64,000 nucleotides of DNA from NCBI RefSeq assembly GCF_000800015.1, contig NZ_JUGR01000001.1, positions 186,001 to 250,000 of the forward strand. The letters run 5' to 3'. The position numbers were made by a program, and so were the translations under genes. Shown here piece after piece: positions 7,612 to 63,242 of the stretch (position 1 is its first letter; every line of letters begins with the position of its first letter). The notes beneath the pieces were generated by a model, which worked only from the letters and a program-made list of their open reading frames with translations, was not told the DNA's origin and ran no database searches. The stretch comes from Terriglobus sp. TAA 43. GTDB lineage: Bacteria > Acidobacteriota > Terriglobia > Terriglobales > Acidobacteriaceae.

Positions 7612-9180
7612 GTGAATAAGACAGTTTCGAAGATGAAAAATGGCGCAGTGTCACTTGCTGCGATTGCGTTTAGTGTTCTGCCGGGCTTTGTTGCGGCACA
7701 TGCTGCAGAACCCGCCATGGCACCGGCAAAGGATGCCGCGGGTACATGGGGCTTCTCGCATGAGAACGTGTTGGGAACATCGCTGGACGCGGCCATCAGC
7801 GCACCGTCGCAGCACGACGCCCGTGTGGCGGAGAAGGCTGCTCTTGCAGAGTTCGATCGTCTTTCCTCGAAGCTTAGCGCATGGAATGGGGACAGCGAAT
7901 TTTCGCGTTGGCAGAAGACGCGCGGAGTTGCGGTAAAAGTATCGCCGGAGCTGATGGAGGTGCTGGCGCATTTCGATGCATGGCAGGGTGAGACGGGTGG
8001 CGTTCTGAACGCTTCCAGCGAGACCGCAGCAAAGGTATGGCGTGGCCCTGCCGCAAAGGGTGCAGCACCTTCTACGGAACAGCTTGCTGCTGCGGTGCAG
8101 GCGATGAAGCAGCCCCACTGGTCGTTAGATCGCACCAACGGCACAGCAACGCGTCTCAGCGATGCTCCGCTGGTCCTTGCTACGTTTACCAAGAGCTGGA
8201 TCACGGAGAAGGCTGCGGAGGCCACTCTGCACGCCGGCGCAACCGGCGTGATGTTGAACGTGGGCGGTGACATCGTAACTCGTGGCGCGCTGACGCAGCG
8301 CGTTGACGTTGCCAATCCGCAGGCACACGCAGAGAACGATGCAGCTATCGACACAGTCGTGTTGCGCGATCGTGCCATTGCAACCAGCGGCAGCTATCGC
8401 CGCGGCTTTGATGTTGCAGGCGAGCGCATGTCCCACATCATCGACCCGCGCACGGCTACGCCTGCAGCGCAGGTGCTGTCCTCCAGCGTTATCGCACAGG
8501 ATGCAACCACCGCAGGCGCACTCGCCACAGCGTTGTCCATCCTGTCGCCGCGTGAATCGCAGGCGTTGATGGAGCGTCATCCTAATGCGCAATATCTCAT
8601 CGTGACTGCGTCTGGCGAAGAGATTCGCAGCAAGGGCTGGACGAACTACGCAGAGCCGAAGTTGGAGCGCGCTGCATACATCGTGAAGGCGGGCGCTGCT
8701 GCGCCGCAGGCTGGCACGAACTGGAACCAGTCCATGGAACTCCAGATCAAGCTGGAACTGCCGCGTATGGACAATCCGCGTTACCGCCGTCCGTACGTTG
8801 CGGTATGGATTGAAGACAAGGACAAGTATCCCGTTCGCACCATTGCGCTGTGGTTCAAGAATCCGCGCTGGCTGAATGAATTGAAGGGCTGGTATCGCGA
8901 TGACCAGCTTCGCAATCTGAGCGAGGGCACGGACATCTCCGCGACGGTCTCCAGCGCCACGCGCGTTCCCGGTGCGTATACGCTGAAGTGGGACGGTAAA
9001 GACAACAACGGCAAGCTGGTGAAGGCCGGAACGTACACCGTGGTGATTGAGGCCGCACGTGAACACGGCGGACACTCATTGTTGCGTCAGGAAATCAACT
9101 TCGATGGCACGCCTTCTGCAAAGACGTTGCCGGCGAGCGAAGAACTGGGAGCGGTGCAGCTTGACTACCGTAAACACTAG
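7612..9180 (+). CDS. ApbE-type FAD:protein FMN transferase fused to DUF2271 domain
   Basis: A 522-residue exported fusion. After a signal peptide (KNGAVSLAAIAFSVLPGFVAAHA) comes an ApbE domain (about residues 45-355), which in characterised members attaches FMN covalently to a threonine of target redox proteins; the metal/FAD signature HIIDPRTATP is present. The C-terminal ~150 residues, from MELQIKLELPRMDN, match the DUF2271 family and end in a FlgD-like beta-sandwich (KWDGKDNNGKLVKAGTYTV). DUF2271 proteins are normally separate and encoded next to ApbE and PepSY membrane proteins, so the fusion is unusual. The GTG at 7612 with GGGAGAG upstream is preferred to a TTG at 7534. Confidence 0.85.
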   Translation: MNKTVSKMKNGAVSLAAIAFSVLPGFVAAHAAEPAMAPAKDAAGTWGFSHENVLGTSLDAAISAPSQHDARVAEKAALAEFDRLSSKLSAWNGDSEFSRWQKTRGVAVKVSPELMEVLAHFDAWQGETGGVLNASSETAAKVWRGPAAKGAAPSTEQLAAAVQAMKQPHWSLDRTNGTATRLSDAPLVLATFTKSWITEKAAEATLHAGATGVMLNVGGDIVTRGALTQRVDVANPQAHAENDAAIDTVVLRDRAIATSGSYRRGFDVAGERMSHIIDPRTATPAAQVLSSSVIAQDATTAGALATALSILSPRESQALMERHPNAQYLIVTASGEEIRSKGWTNYAEPKLERAAYIVKAGAAAPQAGTNWNQSMELQIKLELPRMDNPRYRRPYVAVWIEDKDKYPVRTIALWFKNPRWLNELKGWYRDDQLRNLSEGTDISATVSSATRVPGAYTLKWDGKDNNGKLVKAGTYTVVIEAAREHGGHSLLRQEINFDGTPSAKTLPASEELGAVQLDYRKH

Positions 9181-54263: not shown

Positions 54264-54500
54264 GCGCCAAGGGCGCGACCAGATATTAGCCTAGGCCGAA
54301 GGCCTAGGTAGGGGAGCGAAGGGAAGAATGAGGGCCAACGGCCCGATCTATCTTTGTCTGTTAATCCCTGAGCTTGTGCGGAGATGCGATAACGCAATCA
54401 TTCCAAGCGATTTACCCAACAAAATTTGTTGGCACGATCCCATACGTGCAGGACTACAATAAAAACAGGGAAGATAAAGGGCCGCGCACAGCGCGGCCCT
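54264..54500. repeat. Cluster of four small hairpins in intergenic DNA
   Basis: No gene is seen here. Four compact inverted repeats with three-base loops occur: 54264-54276 (GCGCC/GGCGC), 54290-54308 (CCTAGGCC/GGCCTAGG, loop GAA), 54332-54344 (GGGCC/GGCCC) and 54478-54500 (AGGGCCGCGC/GCGCGGCCCT, loop ACA). They lie between converging gene ends and resemble a REP/BIME-type or RNA-structured element. No T-run follows any of them. Confidence 0.6.
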
Positions 54501-54621: not shown

Positions 54622-57600
54622 TTACTCCGGTAGGTAGCTGTAGAGCAGATACTTCTGTCGCGCCTCGCGGAATTTCCAAAGCTCCGGTTCCCACGCTGCC
54701 ACAATGTCATGCGGATCTTTCCCCGCAGTAAGCGCCTGCATCGTCGCACTGTTCAGCACCAGGCCTTGTGCCTTCGCCAACAGCAGTTGCGTCGGATATT
54801 GCGCATGAACTGCGGCCAGCAACTCCGCGCCCATCGCAGGTGCATCAAGCCGAGTCCGATCGGTAGCGGTTGCACGGATACCATGAATCGCCTGTCCGGC
54901 AAACGGATAAGGCTTCGCCGGAGTAAACGTCACCGGTGCAAACGTCACACCCGTCATCGCACGAGCGTTCAGCGTGTCAGCTAGCTTCTTGGCATCAGCA
55001 TCGGAAGCAATCCACGCAGCGCCAACCTGCTCAAACGCCGCATCCGTTCCGCGGCCAACGGAAAGGTTCGTGTACTCGGCAAACGCGATGCCAGTGTAAA
55101 GCGTAGCCGCACTCATACTCTGCAGATTGGGTGATGGATTCACCCACGGCAAACCGGTCTGGTCATACCAAACACCGCGTTGCCAGTTCTGCATCTTCAC
55201 CACACTCAGCTTCACGCCAAGCTGCTTCTCCCCATTGAAGAACCCTGCGAGCTCACCCATCGTCAGGCCCAGCGATATGGGTTCCTGCATGTAGTCGACA
55301 TAGCTCTGCACGCCCGCATCGGCAACCGGCCCAACAACCTGCACACCGCTCGTGATCGCCGGCCGATCCAGTACAACAACCTGCGTGCCAGCCTTGGCCG
55401 CCGACTCCATCACGTAACCCATCTCGGTCTCGTAGGTGTAGAAGCGTGCTGGAACATCCTGCAGGTCAATCAGCACCGCATCCAGCTTCTGCAGGTCTTC
55501 CACCTTCGGATAACGGTCGGCCAGCTTCGCTCCATACAGCGAGATCACGGGTAGATGCGTCGCTGCATCCACCGCATTGCCCAGACCCTCATGATCCTCA
55601 GCGCCCAGAATCCCATGCTCTGGCGCGAACAGCGTAGTCAGCTGAATACCATTCGCGCGCTGTGCATACAGCACGTCGATGGTGCGTTTGCCGGTGCGGT
55701 TTAGGCCGGTGTTATTGGTCAGCAGTCCGATACGGAGATGTCCCGGTGTCTTGGTAGCTAGTGCATGCAATGCCTGGAAGTTGGTCTGCTCAAGCACATC
55801 AATGCCCGTAAGCGTGGCTTTACCCGACAGTGGCTTATCCAGTCCTAGCGCCTTCGCCGCAGCCGTAGCAATGGTGCCACGCAAGGGTGTAATCGGCTTA
55901 CGTCCGCGTGGATGCACGGCATTCGCCAGCAGGATCACATAGCTGTCGCTGCGAGGATCCATCCACACGGAAGTACCCGTGAAGCCGGTATGCCCGAAGC
56001 TGCCCACCGGATAGATCGTCCCTCGCGGACGCGAGTAGGGCGAGTCAATATCCCATCCAAACCCACGCAGCCCCTTCGCTCCCGTAGGCTGCTCGGGCTG
56101 ACACATCAGCCGCAGCGTCTCCTGCTTCAGGGGGAAGTTGCTCGGGCGTCCCGCCAGCCGATCCAGCAGTGCCTGCGCGAACAGGCTGGTGTCATGCACC
56201 GTGGAGAACACCCCCGCATGCCCGGCAACACCACCCATGCGCCGAGTCGTAGGGTCATGCACCTCACCCCGCAACATACGGTCGTCATCCATGGGCTTGT
56301 CGTCGTTATGGGCAGTGGGCGCAATACGCGCACGCATAGCGGCACTTGACACGGCAGGGCACGTAGCAGGGGCAGGTTCCCAGTACAGGTGAGAGCAGTG
56401 GGGGGTGAAGTATCCCGTCTCCGTCATCTTCAACGGCGAAAAAATATGCTTCGCCGCGTAGACATCGAGCGGTTCACCGCTGATCTTCTCCACAATCGCG
56501 CCAAGAGTGATGAAGTTGATGTCGGAATACTTGAAGGTCTTTCCCGGAGGTCCGTAAAGGTCCGATTCCATCGCGCGCTTCACGCCTTCAGCCTTGCCGC
56601 TCCACGCATCCTTCAGCGACACATCCTCGCGCAATCCGCTGTAGTGCGTCAGCAACTCACGGATCGTCACACTGCTCTTGCCGTTGGCTGCAAACTCCGG
56701 CAGATACTTCACCACCGGATCATCGAACCGCAGCTTGCCCTGCTCATACAACTGCATGATCGCAACCGAAGTCGACATGCACTTGGACAACGACGCCATA
56801 TCGAAGATGGTGTCCTCCGTCATCGCCTCAACGGCCGGATCTTCCGCACGATTGCCGTAAACCTTCTCGTAGACGACGCGTCCAGTGCTACCAATGGCGA
56901 CAACGCCGCCAGGCAACAGCTTGTCCTTCAGCGCCTGCGCCATCAGCGTATCGATCTCGGAGTAGTTGGCACTCTGCGCACGCATGGATGCGGTGCCAAA
57001 GGCGACCATCACCAATAGAGCCGAAACAGCCTTCGTACGCGGCTTGCCCATAAGACTGAACAGCGAGCCAACCACAAACGTCACAACGGAGCCAAGCAAC
57101 ACATACCAGGTGAACGCAATGTCAGACAGAGAGAAGCCTCCGATATGAATAGGGGAAACAGGAAGGATCTTCGGCAGATACAGGGCCAGGTTGAAGGCGA
57201 ATCCCGCGATCATACCGACCGTTGCACCGAACTGTGTCGCATAGCGAGTCAGTGTTCCCAGGAGGAACACGCCCAACAACGCACCATACGCGACGGACGC
57301 AATGGATAACCCCATCTCCACAACGTGCCCCTTACCACCCACCTTCACCGAATAGATCGCAATCGCAACCAGTACAACTGCCCATAGCAGCGTTGCTGTG
57401 CGTGACAGCAGATTACGCTTCGTGTCAGACGCATTCGGATTCAGCTTCATGTAGAAGTCCACGATGGTCGTGGACGAAAGGGAATTCAACGCAGCGGAGA
57501 GGTTTGACATCGCTGCCGCAAGAATCGCCGCAATGAGCAATCCCGCAACACCTGTGGGCATCTGCTGCACGATAAAGGCAGGAAAGAGACGATCAGAACC

Positions 57601-58527
57601 ATGCACGGTCAGCAGCGCGGGATGCTGTCCATAGAACACGTACAGTCCCGCGCCAATCACAAGGAACAGCGTGAACTGCAGGAAGACAACACCGCCGCTG
57701 GCCAACAGCGAAACACGCGCTTCACGCAGATTCTTTGCAGCCAACAGTCGCTGCACCATCAACTGATCGGTGCCATGCGAAGCCATCGTGAGGAATGCGC
57801 CGCCAATCACACCGGCCCAGAATGTGTAGTTGGACGTCAGGTTCACGGTGAAGTCAAAGAGTTGCAACTTATGCGCTGCGCTTGTAACGGCATGGACAGT
57901 TGCCCATCCACCATCGACCTTTGCACCCAGCGTGAACAGAGCAATGATGGTCCCTGCGATGTAGAGGAACATCTGCACCACATCGGTCCAAATCACCGCC
58001 GCCATGCCGCCTTCAAACGTGTAAGCCAGCGTCAACATGCTGATGATGACAATGCTCGCGATGTCATTCGTGCCAATCGCAATGCCAACTACAATGCTCA
58101 CGGCGTAGACACGCACGCCTTCCGCTGCCGCACGCGTCAACAGGAACAAGCCAGCAGTGACCTTATGCAGTATTGGTCCGAAGCGGCGGTCGATCAGTTG
58201 ATATGCGGTGAACAACTCGCCATCAAAGTAACGCGGCAGGAACAGGATGCAGATCAGCAGTCGCCCAATCATGTAGCCGAACACAAGCTGCAGAAAGGTG
58301 AAGTTGCCACCAAAGGCGATACCCGGCACGCTGATGATGGTCAGCGTACTGGTTTCCGCGGACACGATGGAGAGCGCAATGGCCCACCACGGTACGCTAC
58401 GAGCCGCAAGAAAGTACGACGACAGAGATGTGTCTGCGGGCTTGCGGAAGCGCAAGCCAAACAGGGTAATTGCAATCAGGTAAAGGACAATCAGTCCAAG
58501 GTCGAAGGCATGAAGCCGCGTCGGCAT
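54622..58527 (-). CDS. Three-part fusion: sodium/solute symporter, SxxK serine hydrolase, and NamZ-type (DUF1343) exo-N-acetylmuramidase
   Basis: A 1301-residue protein. Residues ~1-500 are a sodium:solute symporter (SSS/LeuT-type fold, about 13 helices, beginning FDLGLIVLYLIAITLFGLRF). Near 500-517 a hydrophobic stretch ending SMRAQS looks like a captured signal peptide and would place the rest outside the membrane. Residues ~520-890 are a class C beta-lactamase-like serine hydrolase with S579-L-S-K582, Y667-S-D and H846-T-G. Residues ~905-1301 match DUF1343 (GH171, NamZ), with APEHG at E970, LIDLQDVPARFYTY and GLPWVNPSPN. NamZ releases terminal N-acetylmuramic acid from peptidoglycan fragments. 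It is last in a leftward operon with nagA, so MurNAc/GlcNAc uptake is likely. Reading frame is unbroken. Confidence 0.88.
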   Translation of the reverse strand: MPTRLHAFDLGLIVLYLIAITLFGLRFRKPADTSLSSYFLAARSVPWWAIALSIVSAETSTLTIISVPGIAFGGNFTFLQLVFGYMIGRLLICILFLPRYFDGELFTAYQLIDRRFGPILHKVTAGLFLLTRAAAEGVRVYAVSIVVGIAIGTNDIASIVIISMLTLAYTFEGGMAAVIWTDVVQMFLYIAGTIIALFTLGAKVDGGWATVHAVTSAAHKLQLFDFTVNLTSNYTFWAGVIGGAFLTMASHGTDQLMVQRLLAAKNLREARVSLLASGGVVFLQFTLFLVIGAGLYVFYGQHPALLTVHGSDRLFPAFIVQQMPTGVAGLLIAAILAAAMSNLSAALNSLSSTTIVDFYMKLNPNASDTKRNLLSRTATLLWAVVLVAIAIYSVKVGGKGHVVEMGLSIASVAYGALLGVFLLGTLTRYATQFGATVGMIAGFAFNLALYLPKILPVSPIHIGGFSLSDIAFTWYVLLGSVVTFVVGSLFSLMGKPRTKAVSALLVMVAFGTASMRAQSANYSEIDTLMAQALKDKLLPGGVVAIGSTGRVVYEKVYGNRAEDPAVEAMTEDTIFDMASLSKCMSTSVAIMQLYEQGKLRFDDPVVKYLPEFAANGKSSVTIRELLTHYSGLREDVSLKDAWSGKAEGVKRAMESDLYGPPGKTFKYSDINFITLGAIVEKISGEPLDVYAAKHIFSPLKMTETGYFTPHCSHLYWEPAPATCPAVSSAAMRARIAPTAHNDDKPMDDDRMLRGEVHDPTTRRMGGVAGHAGVFSTVHDTSLFAQALLDRLAGRPSNFPLKQETLRLMCQPEQPTGAKGLRGFGWDIDSPYSRPRGTIYPVGSFGHTGFTGTSVWMDPRSDSYVILLANAVHPRGRKPITPLRGTIATAAAKALGLDKPLSGKATLTGIDVLEQTNFQALHALATKTPGHLRIGLLTNNTGLNRTGKRTIDVLYAQRANGIQLTTLFAPEHGILGAEDHEGLGNAVDAATHLPVISLYGAKLADRYPKVEDLQKLDAVLIDLQDVPARFYTYETEMGYVMESAAKAGTQVVVLDRPAITSGVQVVGPVADAGVQSYVDYMQEPISLGLTMGELAGFFNGEKQLGVKLSVVKMQNWQRGVWYDQTGLPWVNPSPNLQSMSAATLYTGIAFAEYTNLSVGRGTDAAFEQVGAAWIASDADAKKLADTLNARAMTGVTFAPVTFTPAKPYPFAGQAIHGIRATATDRTRLDAPAMGAELLAAVHAQYPTQLLLAKAQGLVLNSATMQALTAGKDPHDIVAAWEPELWKFREARQKYLLYSYLPE

Positions 58528-58554: not shown

Positions 58555-59718
58555 TTACAGAACCTCTCCTCTCAAGATGGTTCCTACGCGGTTTCCTGCT
58601 TCGTTGAAGACATTGAAACTCGCCTCAGCTTCGTCAAAAGGCAAGTGCAGCATGTTCTTGGGATTGCGTGACGCTAGGCGGACGGCTGTATCCAGCCCGC
58701 AGCCGGTGAAGGTCTGCACATTGGCAACAGCGCGGTCCATCGTCAGCACCGATCCCGCGAGCACACCCGCGTACATCGCTACGCCATCCTTTACCTGAAC
58801 ATTCATGTCGCCCAGAAGGTATTCGCCGTCGGGCATTCCGGTAGCAGCCATGCCGTCGGTGATCAGCATGGCGTGCTCCTCACCCTTCATGCGGAACCAT
58901 AGGCGAACAGCCTCCGGCGTAGTGTGAATGCCGTCGCAGATCAACTCGGCATACAACTCCTTCGTGTCGAGTACAACGCCCAACATGCCCGGCTCGCGTT
59001 GCGTCAGGCCGCGCATGGCGTTGAAGGTGTGTGTGGCGCTTACAGCACCTGCGGCGATGCCGGCTCGCGCTTGTCTGGCAACAGCGTCGCTATGACCCAT
59101 GCTGATGCGGACACCCTTTGCACTCGCATGCGCGATCATCTCCAGCGCATCCTGCAGTTCGGGAGCAACGGTCATCAGTTTGATGTGACCTCGTGCCGCC
59201 TCCTGAAAGCGATCGAACAGTGCAACGGAAGGCCTCTCCAGCAACTCTGGATTGTGTACGCCGCGCTTCTCGTGCGAAAGGAACGGACCTTCCAGGTGAA
59301 TGCCCAAAATCTGCGCGCCATGCTCCGGCGCAGCTGATTCAATTGCATTCGCGATGCTTTCCAGTGCGTGCAGTGTGTGATCGATGCCTGCGGTAACCGT
59401 TGTTGCAAGGAACTGCGTCGTGCCATACCGTGCCAGAGTGCGTGCCACGGTATCAATGGCTTCGGGGGTGCCTTCCATCACGTCGCGTCCACCCGCACCA
59501 TGTACGTGGACATCAAAGAATCCAGCACTGAGCGTTGTTTCGGGAAGATACAACACGCCTTCCGGCAACACATCGCGTTCCAACGAAGTTACCTGTTGCA
59601 CCCTGCCGTCTTCCAGAATCAGCAACGGATCATGTACTACCGAGTGCGGCGTGATCAGCGTTTTCGCTGCGATGGCTTTCGGCCGTGTGCCGGATGCGAG
59701 TTTCGTTTCGTCAGTCAT
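58555..59718 (-). CDS. nagA: N-acetylglucosamine-6-phosphate deacetylase
   Basis: A 387-residue amidohydrolase converting GlcNAc-6-P to glucosamine-6-P. Metal and active-site blocks are visible: HVHGAGGRDVMEGT, the metal-binding glutamate in EGPFLSHEKRGVHN, histidines in GHSDA and THTFNAM, and the catalytic aspartate in LITDGMAATG. The ATG at 59718 overlaps the GH20 stop by four bases; a longer reading to 59793 lies inside GH20. It stands between the hexosaminidase and the NamZ fusion gene, linking both to amino-sugar catabolism. Confidence 0.95.
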   Translation of the reverse strand: MTDETKLASGTRPKAIAAKTLITPHSVVHDPLLILEDGRVQQVTSLERDVLPEGVLYLPETTLSAGFFDVHVHGAGGRDVMEGTPEAIDTVARTLARYGTTQFLATTVTAGIDHTLHALESIANAIESAAPEHGAQILGIHLEGPFLSHEKRGVHNPELLERPSVALFDRFQEAARGHIKLMTVAPELQDALEMIAHASAKGVRISMGHSDAVARQARAGIAAGAVSATHTFNAMRGLTQREPGMLGVVLDTKELYAELICDGIHTTPEAVRLWFRMKGEEHAMLITDGMAATGMPDGEYLLGDMNVQVKDGVAMYAGVLAGSVLTMDRAVANVQTFTGCGLDTAVRLASRNPKNMLHLPFDEAEASFNVFNEAGNRVGTILRGEVL

Positions 59719-61829
59719 TGAGGAGCTCCAGGCGCCGGCGGCGCCGGCAATCCAATCTCGGATGCCGGAGGAATCGTTTGCGTGCGGTCCCACTGTCGTT
59801 GCGCGGAACGCACCTTGTCTATGCGGCTAAGCCACGTATTCAGCGTGTGGTCATAGCGCGCGAGATTGTTCCGCAGGAAGTACGGGCGATTGCTTTTCGA
59901 CCATGCTGCCTCGTAGAGGTCGCGCATCAGCGAGTACTGATTGCGAAGATCCTGCAGCTTACCGTTTACGGCGTTGATGTCGTTCAAGTCGCGCGATACT
60001 TCGGTGCGACTGTCTTTGTCCTTGGCTGTCTGCAAACGATAGGCATTGGCATACGTCGTAGCCATCTCATCGGTCAGTTGAAACTTCAGGCCAATTAGAT
60101 CCATGCGACGCGCGCCCAACTCCATCGCATCCAGCGCATCTTGTTCGCGCAATGTTGCAGAGTTGCGAGCCTGTGCGATCAGCACAATCGCCTGTTCCGC
60201 ATGCATACGGAGTTCATGCAGATAGGGCCGGATCTTCGGTGCATAAATCTGCCCATCCGCGCTCCACGGATCAATCCAGAACAGCAGGTCAGAAGCGTCA
60301 CTTGTCTTGAATCCGTTCTTTAGAACAGCATGCGCAGCCATCAACTCTTTCTGCGCTTCGTTGACCCTACCGCTGGCATCACCATGGAACACCTGCGCGA
60401 AGCTGTCCTGAAATTGTGGGATGGAGCTTTCGCCCTTGTGCCATGCGGTCTGCGCACCAAAGAGCAGCGCATACCAGTTGTTGTTGAACAACGCCTCGCC
60501 GTCGTCTTCCCATAGTGTGTTCAACTGCCCGGTGCATCCCGCGGCCTGTCCCTGCGCAGTGAACTGCTGAATGTTCGGCAGAGCATTGTTGAAGTTGGGC
60601 CACACACGGCTCCAGTTATTCACGCCCGGCGCTACCCAGCATTCCATACCCGCATCGGTGTAGGGCTTAATCCACGGAGCAAAGCTAGTGTGCGGGTTAT
60701 ATTCCCAGCCCACGGCAATCGTTTGTTGTTTGAAGTCCTGCGGCAACGTCTTCAGCAGCGCAGGTTCCTTCATGGCAATGTCGCCCCAGAAAAGAAAGCG
60801 ACGATTCAATGGCTTCAACGCGGCAACGGTTTTCTGTAGGTAGTCCAGATACACGGGGCCAAGACCTTGCGCATCCACTGCGGCTTTTGTCTGCCCCTTG
60901 CCAAGCTCTACGGTTTCATCGGCGCCAATGTGCAACAGCGGCGAAGGGTAATCCGCTGCCAATTCCGTGTACATCCGCTTCGTCAGCTCAACAGAACCCG
61001 GCTGTCCCGGCGCCAGTACGTGGCCATGCGGAGTCTCCGCGAGCGGCGCATACATCTCCTGGTTCAGCATGTAATGCAGATGGCCAAATGCTTCCTGTTC
61101 GGGGATCACAGTGATGTGATACTGCGCGGCGTAGGCAACTAACTCGCGTGCCTGGTCCGGTGTGATCGAACCTCCCGGCGGCGCGGCCAGCGGCTCGCTA
61201 CGGTACTGCATCGTGTTCTCAAAGTACGGCGAATAGACATTCACCTTGTACGACGCAAGCTTGCGAATCAACTCCTTCTGAAACGCAAGCGTCGGCACTG
61301 GCCCGCGCGAAAGATCATCGTGCAGACCGCGATACTTCATTGCAGGCCAATCGCGAATGCTGGCAGTTTGCAATGTCGCTGTGTTGCCATTGCCGCTTAT
61401 CAGTTGCTTCGCCGTCATCGCGCCATAAAACACGCCTGCAGCTGTCGCACCCACAACGCTGATGCCCGATGCGTCAGGAACAATGGCGTAGCCCTCATCC
61501 TGCATCTCGGGCGACCACGCCACATGGGCGACACTCAACGCCTGTTTGCCTGCATCGCTGCCATAACGCAACAAGGTGATGTGTGCCGACCCAGATGTCG
61601 TAACGACAATGTTGCTGTCACGAAGTTGACGCGTGAGTTCATTCACTGCAAACGTGTCGTCTGCATTGCATGCAGAGCAGACAATGCTCACACCCTGCGA
61701 AAGTGGAATCGAGCGAACAGCATTCGCCTCGCGTGGCGTAGGGATCAGCGCCAATTGCGAGAAAGCCGAGACACTGAACATCAACGTGCAGGGGAGAGAC
61801 AGTCGGCGCAACTTTGGGGCAAGGGCCAT
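59715..61829 (-). CDS. GH20 beta-N-acetylhexosaminidase, exported
   Basis: A 704-residue glycoside hydrolase with a signal peptide (cleavage near residue 25). The N-terminal ~130 residues are the GH20b domain (PTPREANAVRSIPLSQGVS), followed by the catalytic barrel with the D-E pair in HIGADETVELG, which works by substrate-assisted catalysis. The C-terminal ~150 residues are helical (KFQLTDEMATTYANAYRLQ). It removes terminal GlcNAc from oligosaccharides such as chitin fragments or peptidoglycan pieces. It starts 28 bases after the lyase-like gene and is coupled to nagA, so these form one transcription unit. Confidence 0.92.
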   Translation of the reverse strand: MALAPKLRRLSLPCTLMFSVSAFSQLALIPTPREANAVRSIPLSQGVSIVCSACNADDTFAVNELTRQLRDSNIVVTTSGSAHITLLRYGSDAGKQALSVAHVAWSPEMQDEGYAIVPDASGISVVGATAAGVFYGAMTAKQLISGNGNTATLQTASIRDWPAMKYRGLHDDLSRGPVPTLAFQKELIRKLASYKVNVYSPYFENTMQYRSEPLAAPPGGSITPDQARELVAYAAQYHITVIPEQEAFGHLHYMLNQEMYAPLAETPHGHVLAPGQPGSVELTKRMYTELAADYPSPLLHIGADETVELGKGQTKAAVDAQGLGPVYLDYLQKTVAALKPLNRRFLFWGDIAMKEPALLKTLPQDFKQQTIAVGWEYNPHTSFAPWIKPYTDAGMECWVAPGVNNWSRVWPNFNNALPNIQQFTAQGQAAGCTGQLNTLWEDDGEALFNNNWYALLFGAQTAWHKGESSIPQFQDSFAQVFHGDASGRVNEAQKELMAAHAVLKNGFKTSDASDLLFWIDPWSADGQIYAPKIRPYLHELRMHAEQAIVLIAQARNSATLREQDALDAMELGARRMDLIGLKFQLTDEMATTYANAYRLQTAKDKDSRTEVSRDLNDINAVNGKLQDLRNQYSLMRDLYEAAWSKSNRPYFLRNNLARYDHTLNTWLSRIDKVRSAQRQWDRTQTIPPASEIGLPAPPAPGAPQ

Positions 61830-61857: not shown

Positions 61858-63066
61858 TTAGGCAGGAGGGCGTACCGTCCAGAGTGCTGGCTGACGCATC
61901 GGAAACGTTCGCAGCAGCTCCGGCTTCTTCGGTTCTGGTGGCAGGCGCTTCCACAACGCAATGTACTCAGAACGGCTGTACGCACGCCCTGCGAGCAGAA
62001 GGCTTGGCTGGCGCACGGGCCAGTCCGTGAAATGTTCCGCGTCCGATGGAAATTTCCAAGCGCCACGGTTAAGTAGCACCGGAAACAGGTATGCCGCGGC
62101 CGACCGCATGCCACGGCCATCCTGCAGGTTGTAGTCCCACAGGCGATCTAATGGAGACGAAACAGCCTCGCACGTCATCGAAAGGCAATCCAGCGTGAAG
62201 ATGGATGCGGCGTACGCGTCGGGCCGGTGCAGTTCGATAGGGAACTGACCGTCGAAATTCATCTCGCGCAACAGCTTGTCGCGGAAGCGATGCAGGCAAT
62301 CCAGTTGCAGCGCGCCGTTGCGTGTGAATCGAGCCATCTCCGCCGCTTGCAGCGTCCAGCAGATGGCGGTGCGGTCCTTCATCTCACGCGCAATAAATCC
62401 CGGCTTGCTTTCGTTCATCCAGGTAGTGAAGTCGGTGAACCATTTGCGCAGCGCGGCGGCATCTTCCTCAGTTGCCGCACCGTTGTAAGCGCATAGAAAC
62501 GACGCGCAACGCGCAGTTTCCGCAAGCATCACGGTATCTTCGATCCCGCGAAAACTGCCATCCATGGAAGGCGGAATGCAGGCTGCGTGGTCCAGATTTG
62601 GCTCCATGCGAGTATCGGTGTCGATGAACCATGCTCGCAAATGATTTAAGGCGTGCTGCGCATACTTCGTTTCTGAAGTGAGCCGCCACGCCGCCACGCA
62701 CGCGGCAACCGCCCCATTCATCCGCACAAGAGCATCGCGATGTTGCGAAAACGCCGCAGGATTGGAGTACCCCGGGCGATGTTCAAAGTGACCGCCCTCT
62801 GTCGCGAACCACTCCGTGTCCTCTGAAAAATACAAGCCCGGACTCGCCAGCTTTTTCGGAGCAGGTACTTCGGTAATCGTCTGCGGTGTCAACTTAAGGG
62901 CTTCCGCTGCGGCGGCAAGAATGTTGTCGCGATCGTATTCCGCGACATTGAAATGAAGATTCTCCGCCACCTGGCCCCGTCCTTCCATGGAAAACATGCA
63001 GCCAACAGCAGCCATTCCGGAAAGGAACGTACGGCGTGAAAGCGCCATGCGGGAGCGGGGAAGCAT
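61858..63066 (-). CDS. Alginate-lyase-family (PL5-like) protein with Tat signal
   Basis: A 402-residue exported protein. A twin-arginine motif LSRRTFLSG opens the signal peptide. The body fits the alginate-lyase alpha/alpha-toroid family: NGAVAACVAAWRLTSETKYAQHALNHLRAWF is the first helix pair, here split as NGAVAACVAAWRLT and YAQHALNHLRAWF; NLDHAACIPPSMDGS carries the likely substrate-cleft residues. Whether it cleaves alginate or another polyuronate/amino-sugar chain cannot be told. The ATG at 63066 is chosen; 63048 is also possible. It is the first gene of the amino-sugar operon. Confidence 0.75.
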   Translation of the reverse strand: MLPRSRMALSRRTFLSGMAAVGCMFSMEGRGQVAENLHFNVAEYDRDNILAAAAEALKLTPQTITEVPAPKKLASPGLYFSEDTEWFATEGGHFEHRPGYSNPAAFSQHRDALVRMNGAVAACVAAWRLTSETKYAQHALNHLRAWFIDTDTRMEPNLDHAACIPPSMDGSFRGIEDTVMLAETARCASFLCAYNGAATEEDAAALRKWFTDFTTWMNESKPGFIAREMKDRTAICWTLQAAEMARFTRNGALQLDCLHRFRDKLLREMNFDGQFPIELHRPDAYAASIFTLDCLSMTCEAVSSPLDRLWDYNLQDGRGMRSAAAYLFPVLLNRGAWKFPSDAEHFTDWPVRQPSLLLAGRAYSRSEYIALWKRLPPEPKKPELLRTFPMRQPALWTVRPPA

Positions 63067-63242
63067 CGTGCCGAAGAGCCTATCACCTTCGTGCGACTGA
63101 AGGGCGGTAACGCGTCTTTCCAAGTCGCTTACACGTCTCAATTTCAAAGCCTTGCGGTCAAATGAGGGTGTGCAAGCATCCCCTATGCCGCCTCTGCTAG
63201 CATCGTTCCAACCGTCTTTGCAGGAGTGGGCAGACCAGCCCT

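Follow-up and report, generated by a model that had tools for sequence, protein, structure and literature searches.

A 64,000-nt stretch (positions 186001-250000) of contig NZ_JUGR01000001.1 from the 4.95-Mb, seven-contig genome of Terriglobus sp. TAA 43 (hereafter the window) carries on its minus strand a single gene (54622..58527) whose product, 1301 amino acids long, joins a sodium/solute symporter (SSS), an SxxK serine hydrolase and a NamZ muramidase. We assign a probability of about 0.6 to the reading that this is a polyprotein, cut into a symporter for N-acetylmuramic acid (MurNAc) and a periplasmic amidase-muramidase, both serving muramic-acid salvage. The parts and the pathway are known ones; their arrangement, with an apparently cleavable joint, appears to be new.

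The gene, its parts and its relatives

The gene begins with ATG and contains no internal stop codon. Residues 1-493 (57049..58527) form the SSS part, matched by Pfam SSF at residues 38-442 (E=1.7e-42; 146.2 bits, cut-off 22.8) and by TIGR00813 (221.8 bits, cut-off 184), and recovered in an AlphaFold2 model. They are followed by an internal signal-peptide-like segment (residues 494-517, 56977..57048), identified by its n/h/c pattern and by the comparison of junctions, and then by an AmiE/PBP4B-like SxxK serine hydrolase of the beta-lactamase/S12 fold (residues 526-876, 55900..56952; Pfam Beta-lactamase, E=1.2e-61). The chain closes with a NamZ_N domain (residues 933-1138, 55114..55731; E=1.3e-68, 230.8 bits), which holds a PEHG motif with E970, and after it a NamZ_C domain (residues 1143-1296, 54640..55101; E=2e-36, 126.5 bits); these Pfam matches all lie above the curated cut-offs. 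Residues S579, K582, Y667, H846 and E970 are invariant in an alignment of 49 sequences (the window protein and 48 relatives; alignment position p is residue p+517 of the window protein). We take the first four to represent the SxxK, Tyr and His-Thr-Gly motifs of an S12 hydrolase, and the Glu of the PEHG motif, E970, to be catalytic in NamZ. An AlphaFold2 model of residues 518-1301, built from a 49-row alignment, reached a predicted local distance difference test score (pLDDT) of 92.2 and a predicted template-modelling score (pTM) of 0.88, and its best fold matches were the DUF1343 protein 4k05, for the NamZ_C domain as well, and beta-lactamase-fold esterases such as EH7 and EstG. The two enzyme parts are predicted to be an AmiE-like amidase and a MurNAc-releasing NamZ. 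A first-pass annotation of the same DNA had proposed one uninterrupted frame for an SSS transporter, a serine hydrolase and a NamZ/GH171 domain, had named the five residues, and had seen a hydrophobic segment at about 500-517 between symporter and hydrolase; all of this was borne out.

Of 300 Acidobacteriaceae genomes, 269 match the fusion protein at E<=1e-60, and the full-length three-part matches in other genomes show 58-98% identity, with Terriglobus as the closest named relatives. A 221-residue junction query against 398 Acidobacteriaceae genomes gave at least 58 rows that span the junction; at least 54 of these, the window's included, have no stop across it, and four (G017, G070, G119, G160) have one in-frame stop. 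The rows were counted by eye, and 54 is a lower bound because further genomes show both halves within one long frame. Among 80 named loci, the single frame occurs in T. roseus, Granulicella mallensis, Granulicella rosea, Edaphobacter modestus, Bryocella elongata and unnamed Acidobacteriaceae, and the complete chromosome of Terriglobus roseus DSM 18391 carries it. An error of assembly or annotation joining separate genes is conceivable in so far as same-frame neighbours one stop codon apart do exist in tandem relatives (L030/L057, L031, L035, L037), but it is refuted because no fewer than 54 of the 398 genomes, and also the complete T. roseus chromosome, show this frame open; we regard it as practically excluded. 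The proposed fusion thus survives this check, recurring as a single frame in independent genomes.

Frames were read in 117 loci, and besides the fusion two other layouts were found. Symporter and hydrolase-NamZ genes stand in tandem on one strand in 12 rows (11 of them different), parted by a single in-frame stop in the loci just named, where L030 and L057 are identical; in 15 rows the two are encoded on opposite strands a few kb apart, the symporter being partial or distant in L089 and L106 (28% identity in the latter). In 18 rows the symporter was not found within the fetched flank, which was often short. In those of the 117 loci that hold both, hydrolase and NamZ share one frame, broken or cut frames aside, and this pair is widespread, with single frames in loci titled Nitrospirae, Thermodesulfovibrionales, Gammaproteobacteria and Verrucomicrobia. 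The frames of L033, L063, L069 and L111 are broken between or within parts, where assembly error or decay is possible.

In a hydrolase-NamZ tree of 100 rows the main fused group adjoins the tandem rows, its support being 68 when L032 is included and 100 when it is not, and a symporter tree of 78 rows gave the same order, from opposite strand through tandem to fused; both trees came from a short search without bootstrap. The former left out the window's own row (L001, entered as the query), the broken or cut L033, L059, L061, L063, L065 and L069, and the presumed duplicates L038, L039, L049, L056 and L116, and never included L111; the identical L030 and L057 were both kept, so that 99 of its 100 rows differ. 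The symporter tree additionally lacks L089, L106, L064 and L070. Close relatives, therefore, do not always carry three separate genes: one clade is fused, its neighbours are tandem, and farther ones have the opposite-strand layout. Because other relatives carry the parts in tandem or on opposite strands, the fusion is derived. The fused locus L064 groups among tandem relatives (98 with L037 by the Shimodaira-Hasegawa-like approximate likelihood ratio test, SH-aLRT, in the hydrolase-NamZ tree) and may be a second, independent fusion; a single origin for all fused rows was not rejected by the approximately unbiased test (p-AU 0.064). Two genomes of the window's genus, which both trees nest within the fused clade, have a DUF3738 gene between symporter and hydrolase (L120:10401-11309; L121:9700-10872) that apparently splits the fusion, and there the hydrolase begins with its own N-terminal signal-peptide-like segment; we count this natural experiment in favour of the polyprotein reading. 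Taken together, the layouts and these two loci suggest that two already co-travelling genes were joined and that the joint apparently can be undone. A four-part fusion, suggested by a long open frame of genome G148, was rejected, as the DNA shows stops and a separate DUF3738 gene.

The junction between symporter and enzymes

The AlphaFold2 model of residues 1-525 (38-row alignment; mean pLDDT 82, pTM 0.82) contains, by our count, 13 membrane helices, and its closest folds are SiaT (5nva/5nv9) and NIS (TM-scores, TMt, of 0.82-0.88). SiaT, a sialic acid symporter and thus a carrier of an acidic sugar, is the nearest transporter of solved structure. SSS proteins have their N-terminus outside, so that with 13 helices the joint would be cytosolic and the next segment would cross the membrane outward. 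This supports, as a prediction from helix count and family topology, the earlier placement of both enzymes on the outer side of the inner membrane.

Where the symporter helices end, the fused proteins continue with positively charged residues, then a short hydrophobic run and a cleavage-site pattern. The window protein has the charged KPRTK and then AVSALLVMVAFGTASMRA|Q, with a proposed signal peptidase I site at A517|Q518 and an alternative at A513|S514. We compared 52 fused junctions with 42 N-termini of unfused orthologues and with 773 transmembrane helices of symporters. The junctions exclude L034, which was missed by the search motif yet has a similar segment; the unfused N-termini include both of the identical rows L030 and L057 and lack L071 and L080 (no anchor motif), L089 (uncertain start) and L070 (fused). 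Since the junction rows are related, their counts should not be read as independent events. All 52 junctions carry a net positive charge ahead of the hydrophobic stretch. A lenient signal peptidase I rule (-3/-1) is satisfied by 51 of the 52 junctions and 40 of the 42 unfused N-termini, against 378 of the 773 helix ends, and the pattern xxA|Q is found in 37, 26 and 7 of these, respectively; shuffled junction windows reached a maximum of 48 (mean 39.5) for the lenient rule and of 17 (mean 8.9) for A|Q. Gln also follows the predicted site in 23 of 61 secreted-like proteins in Acidobacteriaceae loci, in 7 of 40 in other loci and in 2 of 9 in stretches of the window genome, the proteins having been picked by a crude rule that also admits some symporter N-termini. 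Because Gln is common after predicted sites in Acidobacteriaceae loci, the A|Q preference at the junction suits the family. A Gln after the cleavage site has been described as a 'Q-rule' typical of Bacteroidetes, in a paper whose available part does not mention Acidobacteria (PMC5837995). A consistent lipobox, as expected of a lipoprotein signal, was not seen by eye in the fused junctions.

Since the crossing segment is signal-peptide-like and matches the N-termini of unfused orthologues, two mature proteins are the more likely outcome, and the pattern favours cutting over a tether. The first-pass proposal of enzymes bound to their transporter is for the same reason not supported as stated. 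In a tethered 'cut-and-import' device, residues 500-517 would act as a signal anchor that escapes cleavage and forms a 14th helix, and the periplasmic enzymes would feed MurNAc to the symporter at short range. It draws on the single frame maintained over a large clade and on several features that weigh against cleavage. The strict A-x-A motif is present in 23 of the 52 junctions, a number that shuffles also reach (mean 16.3, maximum 26), which leaves the A|Q pattern and the likeness to unfused N-termini to carry the argument for cutting. The junction of L050 fails the lenient rule and that of L109 is poor, and the best site of the window protein has an unusual, weak Met at -3 (Met also in L009, Leu in L010). 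Mean hydrophobicity is slightly higher in the fused segments (2.90) than in the unfused N-termini (2.58) or the tandem group (2.69), so that some fused segments may remain in the membrane as anchors. Anchors and signal peptides could not be told apart by how long the uncharged stretch is, its median length being 16 in fused segments, 15 in unfused ones and 17 in symporter helices, and this test was rejected. A tether is nevertheless unlikely: A|Q occurs in 37 of the 52 junctions but in just 7 of the 773 symporter helices, and the stretch from the last symporter helix to the hydrolase varies from 48 to 157 residues across the fused junctions. Residues 498-525 of the symporter model, moreover, have pLDDT below 50, which is weak evidence because the other alignment rows stop near residue 500.

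It seems equally improbable that the chain stays joined or is cut conditionally. It would then strip, cut and import muramic acid in a single place, cleavage would switch it from a tethered to a diffusible mode or back, and it might replace AmpG in the family's wall recycling. A separate secreted enzyme might also arise beside the full-length chain from an internal translation start in the junction: an in-frame ATG precedes the charged stretch in the window and in L009-L012, and would give an ordinary N-terminal signal peptide. However, an ATG stands there in only 16 of the 52 junctions and any start codon in 23, and a Shine-Dalgarno-like match accompanies the start in 8 junctions, with none in the window. 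These start-codon counts do not support an internal start as a general explanation, and we hold it to be very improbable.

The linkers past the cleavage site contain, in several fused relatives, recurring peptide phrases such as VPHLRDG..VAKVG, ASRYPKASALGL and CDAQSKDPE (L085, L087, L054, L067, L026, L045, L060, L061), as if interspersed DNA repeats had been inserted in frame; the linker of L074 holds three consecutive 45-nt copies that are 62-100% alike (8575-8709).

Gene neighbourhood and symporter cargo

Immediately upstream of the fusion, 27 bp away on the same strand, lies nagA, encoding N-acetylglucosamine-6-phosphate deacetylase (58555..59793; TIGR00221, 299.9 bits, above cut-off), the true start of which, judged by eye, is probably near 59718. 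It is preceded, again on the minus strand, by a gene for a beta-N-acetylhexosaminidase of glycoside hydrolase family 20 (GH20; 59715..61829; Pfam Glyco_hydro_20b and Glyco_hydro_20). A consensus scan found a terminator-like stem-loop with a 10-pair stem about 120 nt downstream of the fusion (54478..54500, minus strand), no promoter-like site and, between the GH20, nagA and fusion genes, no terminator-like site; because the counts of such signals, terminator matches included, were not above shuffles, they were not used as evidence for an operon. Between 54514 and 54594, after the fusion, stand three near-copies of AGACGATTTT(A/G), clustered there while their window-wide count is at chance level. 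Beside the cluster, at 61858-63147, lies a gene of the alginate-lyase family, whose homologue was not found in the flanks of 72 other loci.

The flanks of 73 loci were surveyed, 30 of them fused (the window's included). Among the fused loci, GH20 is present in 23 and NagA in 19, counting the window's own in both, and a BadF-type kinase in 11. The window genome holds one BadF-type kinase and two MurQ above cut-off, and MurQ exceeds the cut-off in 54 of 60 Acidobacteriaceae genomes (the window's included). Next to unfused orthologues, murQ lies 1.3-5.3 kb from the hydrolase-NamZ gene in 13 of 22 genomes and not in the other 9, the 22 being those among G001-G059 with an unfused hydrolase-NamZ row placeable from the listed coordinates. 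We opened 11 of these 13 loci (L131-L141), which belong to other genera than the fused ones. A second hydrolase gene, with 33-38% identity to the hydrolase part, lies nearby in 10 of them (in L131 it is PBP4B-like by profile, below cut-off), and a MurA N-terminus was recognised by eye in 7, with profile confirmation next to MurQ in L131 only. In such loci a hydrolase-NamZ gene near murQ and a murA-like gene links salvage to the first committed step of wall synthesis. The neighbours (GH20, NagA, kinase) and the murQ genes near unfused orthologues are strong context for muramic-acid salvage, and the link to MurNAc salvage proposed in the first-pass annotation is supported by them. For its further proposal, that freed MurNAc is handed directly to the symporter, the gene context gives nothing in the way of channelling. 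Fourteen of the 15 opposite-strand loci have a gene for an amino-acid permease between symporter and hydrolase-NamZ (L084, L086, L088, L089, L091, L097, L098, L100-L102, L108, L113-L115), in several cases overlapping the symporter gene; the permease is possibly an importer for a freed amino acid.

The AmpG model TIGR00901 has no match in the window genome and none above cut-off in the 60 Acidobacteriaceae genomes. The window genome nevertheless encodes AnmK (contig C1:8139-9293; L130), and its presence despite the missing AmpG-model match suggests that anhydro-MurNAc may enter some other way. A second, stand-alone NamZ (contig C3:8062-9246; L128:7003-8247) follows an outer-membrane beta-barrel gene (OMP_b-brl_4, CarboxypepD_reg).

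The binding pocket was compared with that of SiaT, taking residue roles from the available part of PMC5931594 and equivalences from a sequence alignment. The two proteins share their fold, and the carboxylate-binding Ser60 and Thr63 of SiaT, together with Phe78 and the Na3 residue Asp182, are kept and invariant. At the Na2 site (Ser342/Ser343 in SiaT), S341 is kept and Ser343 is replaced by the invariant N342. Arg132, Glu136 and Arg139 are invariant and lie on the same helix as SiaT position 135. The pocket thus appears to be of its own type, compatible with an acidic sugar without proving one, and we infer MurNAc as the substrate of a sodium-driven import.

In the proposed mechanism, one chain would be translated and its N-terminal part inserted as a sodium-driven SSS importer, after which the chain would re-enter the membrane at the internal signal peptide and carry the remainder across. 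Cutting by signal peptidase I would then release a soluble periplasmic enzyme with two catalytic parts, of which the AmiE-like amidase would strip the peptide from MurNAc and the NamZ part would next take MurNAc off the sugar chain, the GH20 enzyme of the upstream gene supplying the matching step that releases N-acetylglucosamine (GlcNAc). The symporter, equal in number because it comes from the same mRNA, would import the freed MurNAc, to be phosphorylated by the BadF-type kinase, converted by MurQ to GlcNAc-6-phosphate and by NagA to glucosamine-6-phosphate. Of this scheme the sequences show the parts and their conservation, the invariant catalytic residues, the cleavage-site pattern and the presence of the pathway genes.

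Several observations tell against this scheme or leave room for another cargo. MurQ was found in the flanks of 2 of the 73 loci, neither of them fused, hence in none of the 30 fused ones, and one of the two MurQ genes of the window genome lies as far as 27.5 kb from the fusion. Weak partial AmpG matches occur in 32 of the 60 genomes, and as only 2 of 14 control genomes score above the cut-off of the model, a divergent AmpG could have gone undetected. The best NCBIfam model for the hydrolase part, PBP4B (NF002968), scored 127.8 bits, below its cut-off of 385, which makes the hydrolase related to, and not a member of, the PBP4B equivalog. The gene context, finally, would be compatible with the import of GlcNAc or anhydro-MurNAc as well. 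The symporter might accordingly carry GlcNAc, as the adjoining GH20 and NagA would suit, anhydro-MurNAc, as AnmK in the genome would suit, a disaccharide, or an amino acid or peptide freed by the hydrolase, instead of free MurNAc. The pocket, too, departs from SiaT: Thr58 is replaced by Glu, the Na2 residue Ser343 by Asn, the Na3 residue Ser346 by Ala, and Arg135, which with Thr58 contacts sialic acid, by Ala. We nonetheless find a different cargo rather unlikely. The same SSS group accompanies hydrolase-NamZ in all three layouts, including the opposite-strand loci, whose flanks gave no GH20 or NagA match and have, in 14 of 15 cases, the amino-acid permease instead; the carboxylate-binding Ser60 and Thr63 are invariant, and so, on the helix that holds position 135, are Arg132 and Arg139; and the MurT importer described below is a precedent for MurNAc.

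Known systems and meaning

In Bacillus subtilis the MurNAc cluster has the order murQ-murR-murP-amiE-nagZ-ybbC, and AmiE and NagZ act in sequence on extracellular muropeptides, according to the available part of PMC5061867. The system proposed here is similar in that extracytoplasmic salvage would rely on an AmiE-like amidase, an enzyme that releases GlcNAc, NamZ, a transporter and MurQ; GH20 may take the place of NagZ. In B. subtilis, however, these are all separate genes and the transporter, MurP, belongs to the phosphotransferase system, whereas here an SSS symporter, the amidase and NamZ share one frame. We take ybbC of that cluster to be NamZ, the first paper on which reportedly appeared in the Journal of Biological Chemistry in 2021. 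Tannerella forsythia has a MurT-MurK-MurQ system in which MurT is a MurNAc importer of the sodium symporter superfamily, as given in the available parts of PMC5790795 and PMC7670621, which shows that a protein of this superfamily can import MurNAc. An importer of free MurNAc from this superfamily, a kinase and an etherase are common to both systems as described; in T. forsythia, MurT is a separate gene and AmpG is also present.

The three-part architecture was not found in the titles and abstract openings of the open-licence papers that the literature searches listed, and it seems, as the first-pass annotation had supposed, to be undescribed. The hydrolase-NamZ pair itself is not new: a two-domain DDPept-DUF1343 protein is listed once in the available part of a 2008 survey (PMC2605481), with an S12/beta-lactamase domain and then DUF1343 in the same order and without the transporter part. 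SiaT, as far as its description was available, has no attached enzyme. The available part of a 2021 review of prokaryotic SSS proteins covers fusions to sensor kinases and mentions neither 'muramic' nor 'MurT' (PMC7918813). The SSS-sensor kinases described there, such as CbrA, likewise have an SSS domain and a C-terminal extension in one chain, but that extension is a sensor kinase, where the window protein has two predicted periplasmic enzymes past an internal signal-peptide-like segment. A parallel to the proposed joint is the FbcH cytochrome b/c1 precursor of Bradyrhizobium, in which a polytopic protein, an internal signal sequence and a periplasmic protein follow one another and signal peptidase makes the cut; FbcH, however, yields a respiratory complex, and the window protein a transporter with hydrolases.

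The fusion provides a candidate MurNAc transporter for the Acidobacteria, for which none was found in the titles and abstract openings of the open-licence papers listed. If the junction is not cut, this would be the first SSS transporter known to us with its own substrate-releasing enzymes attached; if it is cut, it would be a bacterial polyprotein of transporter and enzyme through which the importer and its periplasmic partner are supplied at a fixed ratio of 1:1. Either way, the locus is a concrete candidate for the recovery or scavenging of wall sugars in soil bacteria whose 60 surveyed genomes have no AmpG-model match above cut-off.

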